Below, one piece after another: positions 13,056-22,836 of a stretch of 57,502 nucleotides of DNA. A model generated the notes under the pieces. It had not been told where the DNA came from. It made no database searches and saw nothing but the letters and a program-made list of their open reading frames with translations. This DNA comes from Bacillota bacterium. GTDB taxonomy: Bacteria > Bacillota > Limnochordia > DTU087. Position numbers and translations under genes: made by a program. The DNA lies in the NCBI GenBank assembly GCA_012519025.1, contig JAAYQZ010000013.1:1-57502 (forward strand), given 5' to 3'. Each line of letters opens with the position of its first letter. The stretch's first letter is position 1.

Positions 13056-13064
13056 TGATATACT
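13056..13064 (+). promoter_or_regulatory. Extended -10 promoter element upstream of the DUF1538 gene
   Basis: TGATATACT: an extended -10 (TGn followed by TATACT, 5 of 6 to consensus) about 55 bases before the chosen TTG start. I see no good -35, which is common with extended -10 promoters. It lies in the divergent gap between gpr and the DUF1538 gene. Confidence 0.5.
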
Positions 13065-13119
13065 GTCCGTGACATATGTAATAAATTAAATGAATCGTCC
13101 TCAAAGAAGGAGGGATCCC

Positions 13120-14604
13120 TTGGATATTCTTTGGAAGCAGCTTAAGGGAGTATCATTCACCGTTTTACCTATCACACTTTTAGTTGCCGCCCTAAACTTC
13201 ACCATAGTGTCTATAGAAACAATCATGTTTTTAAGGTTTTTGCTTGGGGCTTTTATCATTACCATCGGTCTGGGCATTTTTCTATTCGGGGCCCAAATTG
13301 GCATCAGTCCCATTGGCAGGTTGATGGGTGAGACCATCGCCAAAACAGACAACGCTTATCTTGTGGGGGTACTGGGATTTATATTAGGGTTTTTAATCAG
13401 CATAGCTGAGCCCGATCTGCAAATCCTCGCCAGGCAGGTAAGTCTAGCCTCCGGCGGCATAATCTCGGCAGCTGCTTTTTTGGTAGTGGTTTCTGTGGGA
13501 GTGGGCATCATGGTGGGCCTGGGGCTTTTGCGCATCCTTTATGAAAAACCTTTAAACAGGCTGTTTCTTGTCACGTATTCAATTATTTTACTTCTGGGTT
13601 TAAAGGCTTCCCAAGAATTTTTGGCATTTTCAGTAGATGCGTCCGGCGCCACTACCGGGGCCATGACAACACCTTTTATACTTGCTTTGGGCTATGGTGT
13701 TTCCCAACTTAAAGGCGGCAAAACCGTGGAAGAAGACAGCTTCGGTATGGTGGGATTAGCTTCAGCCGGACCGATTTTTGCCATTATGGGTATGGGTATC
13801 GTGAAAAGACTGACCAACCTGCAGGGTGAACAGATACTGCTTCAGCCAAGTGTTGGTATACTTAGACCTTATATACTAGCTTTCCCCCAGTTTGTTAAAG
13901 AAGCCCTCATGACGCTGCTGCCTTTAGCTTTAGTGTTTTTGTTATTCAACAAAAGGAAGCTGAAGCTTGTTCCCAAGAGCAGAAACACAATATTGAAGGG
14001 TCTTTTTTATACATTCATTGGTCTTACATTGTTTTTGGTAGGAGTAAATGCAGGCTTTATGGATGTCGGCAGGGCCGTTGGTGAACAAATCGCCACATTT
14101 CATCCCTGGCTGTTGCCGGTGATTGGGTTTTTGTTGGGCATGGTAGTTGTGTTGGCGGAACCAGCTGTTTATGTGCTGACAGAACAGGTGGAGGAAGTAA
14201 CAGCGGGCCATATTCGCAAAAAAGTCATTTTGGTCACTCTGTCAATCGGTATAGCCTTTGCTGTCATGTTTTCGATGCTGCGGATTATGGTGCCGGCAGT
14301 AAAGCTTTGGCATTTTCTTTTACCGGGATTTGCATTTGCCGCATTTTTGTCTTACCGAGTCCCACCCATCTTCGTCGGTATTGCATATGATTCCGGAGGC
14401 GTCGCTTCCGGCCCCATGACAGCAACGTTTGTATTGGCTTTCGCTCAAGGGGCGGCTGAAGCAGTTTCTACTGCAAATGTCTTAATTGACGGGTTTGGAG
14501 TAATCGCCATGGTGGCCATGACACCACTGGTGGCCATCCAAATTCTGGGCCTTATGTTCAAGCGCCAAGCCGAAAAGGAGAGAATCAGTGATGCCATCAA
14601 TTGA
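13120..14604 (+). CDS. DUF1538 family membrane protein with two tandem DUF1538 repeats
   Basis: Predicted multi-pass membrane protein of unknown function, 494 aa. The two halves repeat each other. The first has a GxxLFGAQIGISPIGRLMGE region, SIAEPDLQILARQV near residue 95 and DASGATTGAMTTPFILALGYG near 172. The second has GMVVVLAEPAVYVLTEQV near 345 and YDSGGVASGPMTATFVLAF near 423. The Ser-Gly-Gly/Thr-Gly re-entrant-like motifs and the inverted-looking layout suggest a channel or carrier, by inference. I choose TTG 13120 because AGAAGGAGG lies 6 bases upstream, over ATG 13090 which precedes that site. The downstream PII-like gene overlaps its end by 14 bases, implying coupling and a regulator-transporter pair in the style of AmtB-GlnK. 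Substrate unknown. Confidence 0.9.
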   Translation: MDILWKQLKGVSFTVLPITLLVAALNFTIVSIETIMFLRFLLGAFIITIGLGIFLFGAQIGISPIGRLMGETIAKTDNAYLVGVLGFILGFLISIAEPDLQILARQVSLASGGIISAAAFLVVVSVGVGIMVGLGLLRILYEKPLNRLFLVTYSIILLLGLKASQEFLAFSVDASGATTGAMTTPFILALGYGVSQLKGGKTVEEDSFGMVGLASAGPIFAIMGMGIVKRLTNLQGEQILLQPSVGILRPYILAFPQFVKEALMTLLPLALVFLLFNKRKLKLVPKSRNTILKGLFYTFIGLTLFLVGVNAGFMDVGRAVGEQIATFHPWLLPVIGFLLGMVVVLAEPAVYVLTEQVEEVTAGHIRKKVILVTLSIGIAFAVMFSMLRIMVPAVKLWHFLLPGFAFAAFLSYRVPPIFVGIAYDSGGVASGPMTATFVLAFAQGAAEAVSTANVLIDGFGVIAMVAMTPLVAIQILGLMFKRQAEKERISDAIN

Positions 14605-15262
14605 ACACAGTTTCCTTTTGTTTTGCTGTATTCTTGATCATGGAAAAGGCAGTGATGTGCTGAAACTTATAAAAAGTTTAGGGGGTTTTGGCGAAACCAT
14701 CTTCTTTGGCAAAGGCACCATTAAGGACAAATGGTTAAACGTCCTGGGCGTTCTTGAGACAAGGAAAGAGGTATTGTTTGCTGTCATCAGCAAAGTTTCT
14801 GAGGATAGTATTTACGAGCAGGTAGGAGATAAGTTCGGGTTGGAGAAACCCGGCCGGGGGATTGCTTTTTCCATGCCTTTGAAATACTATCTGCCGGTTG
14901 AAGGAATCAAGCGTGGGTTAGTTACGAAGAAAGGCGTGCATAATGTGACTCATGAAGCTATATTTGCCATTGCCAATAAAAGCGCCCAAGATATTATTAT
15001 TCAGGCGGCGGAATCTGCCGGCTCCACCGGCGGCACTATCATCCACGGCAGAGGTTCAGGCACCCAGGAGAAAGCAACTTTATTCAATATAGAGATCGAG
15101 CCGGAGAAAGTCATAGTCTTAATCTTGTCAAAAGTAGAAAGAACCGATGCCATTGTAGAATCCATCCAGAAGACCTTAAATGTGCATGAACCCAATACCG
15201 GTGTCGTCTTTGTCATGGACGTATCAAAAGCCCTGGGACTGTATGAAGGGCAATCCAGTTGA
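14591..15262 (+). CDS. Tandem PII-like (GlnB-fold) regulatory protein
   Basis: 223 aa containing two PII-like ferredoxin-fold domains. The first (about residues 8-105) has LLFCCILDHGKGSDVLKLIKS and FFGKGTIKDKWLNVLGV. The second (about 110-215) has HEAIFAIANKSAQDIIIQAA, then GSTGGTIIHGRGSGTQEKATLF, which matches the GlnB G-[GT]-x-x-x-GRG region leading into the T-loop, and VIVLILSKVERTDAIVESI. The T-loop lacks the uridylylated Tyr context of classical GlnB, so ligand and modification are unknown. AAGGAG lies 7-10 bases upstream of GTG 14588/ATG 14591. It overlaps the DUF1538 gene by 14 bases; I infer it gates or senses for that membrane protein. Confidence 0.88.
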   Translation: MPSIEHSFLLFCCILDHGKGSDVLKLIKSLGGFGETIFFGKGTIKDKWLNVLGVLETRKEVLFAVISKVSEDSIYEQVGDKFGLEKPGRGIAFSMPLKYYLPVEGIKRGLVTKKGVHNVTHEAIFAIANKSAQDIIIQAAESAGSTGGTIIHGRGSGTQEKATLFNIEIEPEKVIVLILSKVERTDAIVESIQKTLNVHEPNTGVVFVMDVSKALGLYEGQSS

Positions 15263-15280
15263 AATCTGGATTGCATTCTG
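15250..15280 (+). terminator. Hairpin at the end of the PII-like gene
   Basis: Perfect 9-bp inverted repeat GCAATCCAG / CTGGATTGC with a 7-base loop (TTGAAAT). The 5' arm contains the last sense codons and the loop holds the TGA stop. The tail ATTCTGTCTTT is only moderately T-rich, so this is a weak terminator or an mRNA-end stabiliser before rpsT. Confidence 0.5.
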
Positions 15281-22576: not shown

Positions 22577-22603
22577 AAAAAAACCCATCCCCTTAAGGGA
22601 CGG
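22577..22603 (-). terminator. T-box-regulated transcription terminator of leuS
   Basis: Minus strand CCGTCCC, loop TTAAG, GGGATGG (one G-U pair), then a run of seven T. The 5' arm CCCTT can instead pair with the AAGGG just before the T-box sequence to form the antiterminator, the classic alternative fold. Confidence 0.92.
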
Positions 22604-22836
22604 ATCAATTCACCCGCGTTACCACCCTTGTTGGTGTCCTTTAGCTAAACACAGCAAAGGCGCACCCCCTCTTGCGGCAATTTAACGGTTGCCATCCGAG
22701 ATCAGCTACATTGTTTTCACTGATCCATCTTTCAGGGCGAGTTCAACAAATTCAGTACCGATTTTCACCGGCTCACTAAAGCCAAATTGTCTACTACTCC
22801 CTGTCATCGATATTATTGAGATCTTGCTTTTTGCAC
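22577..22836 (-). promoter_or_regulatory. Leucine T-box riboswitch (leuS leader)
   Basis: Transcribed leader between the leuS promoter and gene, sensing uncharged tRNA-Leu. Stem I opens with CAGGGAGTAGTAGACA (containing AGTA) and closes with CGCCCTG. In the 3' side of the specifier loop GAA is followed by CTC (22741-22739), a leucine codon, as in other leucine T-boxes. The T-box sequence AAGGGTGGTAACGCGGG lies at 22629-22613; its TGGT would pair with the ACCA end of tRNA-Leu. The terminator follows. This element occupies most of the 395-base gap between leuS and spoVAC. Confidence 0.95.

Follow-up and report, generated by a model that had tools for sequence, protein, structure and literature searches.

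A DUF1538 transporter gene overlapping a tandem PII-like gene: a candidate PII-controlled cation/proton antiporter with predicted inverted halves

Few signalling proteins are as widespread as those of the PII group, and the PII partner transporters known to us all carry nitrogen or carbon nutrients. A two-gene module from a Bacillota bacterium raises the question of whether a PII-type protein may also serve a membrane protein of another kind, and of what that membrane protein would transport. The module lies in the window (the whole stretch of DNA that was analysed, 57,502 nt of contig JAAYQZ010000013.1) and encodes a DUF1538 membrane protein followed by a PII-like protein. The reading that we favour, with a probability of roughly 0.6, is that of a cation/H+ antiporter with antiparallel halves, controlled by a dedicated PII-like subunit.

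The module and its genomic setting

The transporter gene (13120–14604, + strand) contains two PF07556 stretches (E 4.2e-125), which places its product in the DUF1538 family and bears out the two repeats proposed in the earlier note. Its reading frame is open to 14604 from an ATG at 13090, and the TTG at 13120 is most likely the start because a Shine-Dalgarno sequence, AAGGAGG (13107–13113, +), lies 6 nt ahead of it, no Shine-Dalgarno-like sequence precedes the ATG at 13090, and an N-terminal alignment of homologues places a methionine in the TTG column in 44 of 82 sequences. The tandem PII-like gene (14591–15262, +) begins at ATG 14591, with GTG 14588 as an alternative, and overlaps the transporter gene by the 14 nt originally described. 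A stem-loop with a 9-bp stem and a weak T tail (15250–15274, +) spans the stop codon of the PII-like gene and is a possible terminator before rpsT. Upstream of the module, an extended -10-like sequence, TGATATACT (13056–13064, +), was recognized by eye as an unproven candidate promoter; the promoter-like -10 claimed earlier stands to this extent, but a consensus scan of the + strand detected no sigma-70 promoter upstream of the module and no -35/-10 pair at 13056–13064. Elsewhere in the window, a T-box leader was identified at 22593–22816 on the minus strand (Rfam RF00230, 95.7 bits).

The module is flanked by gpr and spoIIP, both on the minus strand, and by rpsT on the plus strand 76 nt downstream, followed by holA on the minus strand. 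It had been described as oriented against its neighbours, which holds for gpr, from which it is divergent, but not for rpsT, with which it is co-directional. In six genomes of the same family (G002, G004–G007 and G009), gpr and rpsT adjoin each other in divergent orientation without an intervening gene. The remaining family members searched carry at most a DUF1538 gene of the lone type together with one PII gene, or neither, and the nearest fused homologues (70–74 % identity) occur in Tissierellia-like and other genomes. The empty gpr–rpsT interval in six relatives, the lack of the fused form in the family and the placement of the nearest fused homologues in other groups indicate that the module was probably acquired by transfer, in keeping with the suggestion that it is an inserted unit. 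A genome of the same genus (G001) has a lysylphosphatidylglycerol synthase-like gene upstream of gpr (L187:2418–3545), at the position of rpsT in six other family members. The gpr–rpsT interval may be an insertion spot in the genus of the host. A second, smaller module is present in the host genome (contig C44, L036:6933–7970), with a lone DUF1538 gene (231 aa) followed by a single PII gene (112 aa).

Linkage, copy number and fusion of DUF1538 and PII genes

The partnership of the two proteins had been proposed from gene overlap, together with a survey of DUF1538 genes for adjacent PII-like genes. Of 51 complete DUF1538 neighbourhoods in 43 genomes of relatives, 49 had a PII gene adjacent to DUF1538 on the same strand or fused with it. 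A set of 80 GTDB loci, found with DUF1538 alone by an alignment query and sharing at least one contig with the set from relatives, gave the same association in 78 of 79 complete loci; a contig scan with the single window protein as query confirmed no relatives. The plasmids carrying DUF1538 were the same nine that carry this type of PII (9/9), including those of Alphaproteobacteria, which were covered through plasmid records, and the linkage was likewise found in the phylum of Mobiluncus. The real exceptions were L055, which shares a contig with L132, and L052; the genome of the former (G025) contains a linked single pair at another place, and that of the latter (G022) has a matching PII on a separate contig. 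The first residue of the PII domain is encoded a short way past the transporter stop codon (median 20 nt, 120 pairs). No third neighbour was conserved, the commonest neighbouring domain being GGDEF (3 of 74).

A riboswitch was not a general feature of these loci, as Rfam searches of the window and 31 loci and a search for RF00379 over 80 genomes gave a single upstream match, a c-di-AMP riboswitch ahead of a DUF1538–PII module in genome G020 (L051:4991–5138, − strand). This riboswitch class is associated with K+ and osmolyte genes, and its presence at L051 could point to another physiology.

Copy number was also coupled between the partners. Lone DUF1538 genes and UmpA/UmpB-like gene pairs are each accompanied by one PII domain (D-P and D-D-P, where D is DUF1538 and P is PII), while the fused double DUF1538 is accompanied by a tandem PII or by two PII genes (DD-PP). 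In two DD-PP-DD-P arrays (L061 and L145), the second unit has one PII domain. Furthermore, a PII domain forms the C-terminus of the transporter itself in eight loci, detected with a family profile (E 2.7e-11 to 1.8e-21); Pfam detected one of four such tails tested, and weakly. Seven of these eight loci (L102, L103, L109, L110, L115, L133 and L134) have a tandem PII gene directly upstream, which overlaps the PII-tailed transporter gene by 4 nt. The resulting three PII domains per module equal the number in a PII trimer, although this is suggestive only. A search of literature available without subscription found no link of DUF1538 to PII or to dual topology.

Of the three outcomes named earlier as fatal to the partnership, two were contradicted, since the two families co-occur almost without exception and the second protein is predicted to fold as PII. 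These data allow very high confidence that the transporter and the PII-like protein are functional partners, and make it quite probable that the latter is a direct regulatory subunit of the former. The PII-like protein might instead act on gene expression or on an enzyme and merely be co-inherited with the transporter. The separation of the partners in G022 would fit such an arrangement, as would the putative nature of the transporter–PII interaction, but the fusion into a single chain in eight loci, the near-complete linkage in both directions, the coupling of copy number and the lack of a further conserved neighbour render co-inheritance very unlikely.

Inverted halves and transport chemistry

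The AlphaFold model of the transporter (pLDDT 94.2, pTM 0.92) has seven transmembrane helices in each repeat. Repeat 1 (13171–13803, +) has a predicted N-in/C-out topology and helices broken at E107-P108 and D183; repeat 2 (13927–14553, +) has a predicted N-out/C-in topology and the equivalent breaks at E357-P358 and D434. The Glu-Pro pairs are each invariant or nearly so among homologues. No matching fold was found in the PDB (best E 0.05, probability 0.25), and DUF1538 has no solved relatives by sequence or by fold. A candidate giant DUF1538 protein (a frame of 3920 residues in G104) was rejected as a gene running into a masked N stretch; the fused DUF1538 gene of this genome is broken near residue 363 by the largely masked stretch, with a recombinase-like frame at its other end (L197:1831–13587).

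Orientation was predicted from charge bias, the count of lysine and arginine in the loops on either side of the predicted helices. For fused proteins the mean bias, which predicts topology and does not measure it, was +7.7 for N halves and −6.4 for C halves, with opposite signs in 106 of 106. Gene pairs had similar means (+5.7 for first and −5.2 for second members), and lone genes averaged −0.2 (range −4 to 3, n=14), with −2 for the lone gene on contig C44 of the host. Shifting the loop boundaries at random left the order of these values unchanged in 200 of 200 trials. Further loci from other phyla gave +1 to +2 for six lone genes and +4 to +7 and −2 to −8 for the members of pairs; opposite bias in pairs recurred in the phylum of Mobiluncus and in Alphaproteobacteria. 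Two apparently lone genes in this further set, with biases of −6 and +10, proved to be halves of truncated fused genes, with which these values agree. In the literature, dual-topology proteins score between −2 and +1, and antiparallel pairs have biases with a magnitude of 6 to 7 (PMC3962082). On this sequence evidence DUF1538 looks like a dual-topology family, newly recognized here, and the opposite bias predicts with high confidence that the two halves are antiparallel. With seven helices per domain and direct fusion, an N-in/C-out half followed by an N-out/C-in half would place both ends of the 14-helix chain in the cytosol, which agrees with the PII domains fused to the C-terminus in some homologues.

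In the phylogenetic tree, first-of-pair genes clustered with the N halves of fused genes (support 0.96) and second-of-pair genes with the C halves (support 0.99). Each fused half was monophyletic and the lone genes fell between the two groups. In this sample, the tree fits a single duplication of a dual-topology ancestor followed by a single fusion. The wider interpretation, that DUF1538 is an unrecognized dual-topology family whose fold has no counterpart in the PDB, with all stages towards an inverted repeat extant and with an obligate PII regulator that was duplicated when the transporter was fused, is in our judgement about evenly balanced between right and wrong.

DUF1538 had been regarded as uncharacterized, but one member has been studied. 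UmpA/UmpB of Halomonas zhaodongensis is a Na+(Li+, K+)/H+ antiporter with K0.5 values at pH 9 of 0.26 mM for Na+, 0.41 mM for K+ and 0.46 mM for Li+; both subunits are required and form a heterodimer by co-immunoprecipitation (PMC5484666). It was functional in Escherichia coli from a cloned fragment without PII, so PII is dispensable for activity (PMC5484666). The window transporter is likely to be a monovalent cation/H+ antiporter as well, and the acidic residues at the helix breaks of the model would suit cation/H+ exchange; these breaks are the one feature of the predicted fold that suggests antiporter-like architecture. The NCBIfam models for UmpA and UmpB gave 151 and 139 bits, far under the equivalog cut-offs of 490 and 500, indicating the same family and another equivalog. 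The window protein resembles UmpAB only remotely, so its substrate may differ.

It is accordingly worth weighing whether a different substrate is carried, be it an anion, ammonium, bicarbonate or organic acid, with PII reporting the carbon, nitrogen or energy state as in AmtB–GlnK and SbtA–SbtB. Nitrogen or carbon nutrients are the cargo of the well-known PII–transporter pairs (PMC8352866). Antiport by UmpAB was scored on one distant pair, by growth rescue and vesicle dequenching (PMC5484666), and the window protein lies under the UmpA/UmpB cut-offs. However, the sole measured member of DUF1538 exchanges Na+, K+ or Li+ for H+. A search of the whole host genome (98.6 % complete) found no AmtB (PF00909) and no classical GlnB/GlnK over threshold, so that nitrogen control in this host must run otherwise. 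One homologue also lies behind a c-di-AMP riboswitch, an RNA class generally known from K+ and osmolyte genes. Transport of another solute is thus unlikely, and cation/H+ antiport remains the preferred reading.

The PII-like subunit and comparison with known systems

The product of the overlapping gene was modelled as two ferredoxin-like/PII domains (AlphaFold, pLDDT 86.5), and the model matched PDB chains of GlnK1, GlnK2, CPII and other PII proteins (Foldseek probability 1.00), so the fold supposed earlier is borne out. The N-terminal domain (14615–14887, +) was recognized by the family profile only (8e-26); it is the more altered of the two, its T-loop region is replaced, and its type is restricted to tandem forms. 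The C-terminal domain (14951–15238, +) was recognized by Pfam P-II (E 1.1e-11) and is of a type common to single-PII and fused forms. It retains the cleft residues G27, T29, G35, G37, G87 and G89 (GlnB numbering) and lacks the ligands of the ATP phosphates (R38 to I/V/S/T, K90 to I, R101 to G, R103 to Y/V/F). The segment equivalent to the T-loop has 15 residues in the C-terminal domain and 12 in the N-terminal domain, compared with 21 in GlnB. Nucleotide binding may therefore occur, though not in the Mg-ATP manner of GlnK, and with phosphate ligands lost and a short T-loop, neither GlnK-type Mg-ATP binding nor a long T-loop plug is expected. Identity with PstA was rejected, as the PstA family is PF06153 and the host encodes a separate PstA c-di-AMP receptor elsewhere.

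AmtB–GlnK had been offered as the model for this module. The likeness is loose: a PII fold is linked to a membrane protein, but the T-loop is short, the residues at K90, R101 and R103 are lost, and the host has neither AmtB nor GlnB/GlnK. The canonical AmtB–GlnK reading was rejected, since the partner is DUF1538, PF00909 is absent from the genome, and both T-loop and ATP ligands are altered. A broader possibility is that the tandem PII protein plugs the transporter with its T-loop, as GlnK does AmtB and SbtB does SbtA. The gene layout, a transporter followed by an overlapping PII gene, is the same, and the modelled PII fold agrees. Nevertheless, the T-loop is shortened in one domain and replaced in the other, transporters with PII tails misfit a free trimeric plug, and UmpA–UmpB pairs and single domains go with one PII domain. 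Such a plug is quite improbable, and on sequence grounds the PII-like subunit probably does not act in the style of GlnK. The proposal that two PII domains match the pseudo-symmetry of the transporter fails in its simple form, as UmpA and UmpB pairs have a single PII and the halves are inverted by charge bias. Inverted halves show different cytosolic faces and would not be bound equivalently by one cytosolic protein; a simple match of two domains to two halves is therefore quite improbable.

For the preferred reading, of a PII-controlled antiporter, we propose the following mechanism. The membrane protein would be a 14-helix monovalent cation/H+ antiporter of the UmpAB family, with its chemistry taken from UmpAB, and its two homologous seven-helix halves would be inserted in opposite orientation. 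It would have arisen from a dual-topology homodimer by duplication, fixation of opposite charge bias and fusion. The conserved Glu-Pro and Asp at the helix breaks of each half would serve as cation and proton sites. The PII-like protein, with two domains per chain, would be a cytosolic regulatory subunit docked on the cytosolic face of the transporter, and we infer that control runs from this subunit to the transporter. A small-molecule signal, for which an adenine nucleotide different from Mg-ATP is the leading candidate, would alter transport, and would do so by a mode other than a long GlnK-style T-loop plug.

If true, this would be a case of PII control for which we know no precedent, either among alkali cation/H+ antiporters or among transporters with two antiparallel domains. 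Through the PII subunit, many anaerobic and halophilic bacteria would couple their ion and pH balance to the energy or second-messenger state of the cell. It would also offer a function for many proteins annotated as 'P-II family nitrogen regulator', probably one unrelated to nitrogen. With its units of seven helices, DUF1538 would preserve every extant stage between a dual-topology homodimer and a fused inverted repeat, which would make the argued origin of inverted-repeat transporters directly testable.

Among known systems, UmpAB is closest, with the same Pfam family, seven helices per unit and two homologous units forming one working antiporter. It differs in having two separate genes instead of one fused chain and in its distant sequence; a PII was neither described nor present in the cloned fragment, and an antiparallel arrangement was not proposed. 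SbtA–SbtB likewise combines an inverted-repeat transporter, for bicarbonate, with an adjoining dedicated PII-like gene, but SbtA has 5+5 transmembrane helices and another fold, and SbtB, a single-domain protein, inserts a long structured T-loop into the transporter (PMC8352866). AmtB–GlnK shares the linkage of a membrane protein gene to a PII gene, whereas AmtB is a channel outside DUF1538 and GlnK has a long T-loop and a full ATP site. PstA/DarA, a c-di-AMP receptor, shares the PII fold, occurrence in Firmicutes and a link to ion homeostasis, but belongs to PF06153. Finally, SMR/EmrE, Fluc/CrcB and DUF606 show the same set of near-zero-bias lone genes, opposite-bias pairs and fused two-domain forms; their units have three to five transmembrane helices, whereas those of DUF1538 have seven and are accompanied by a PII-type regulator.
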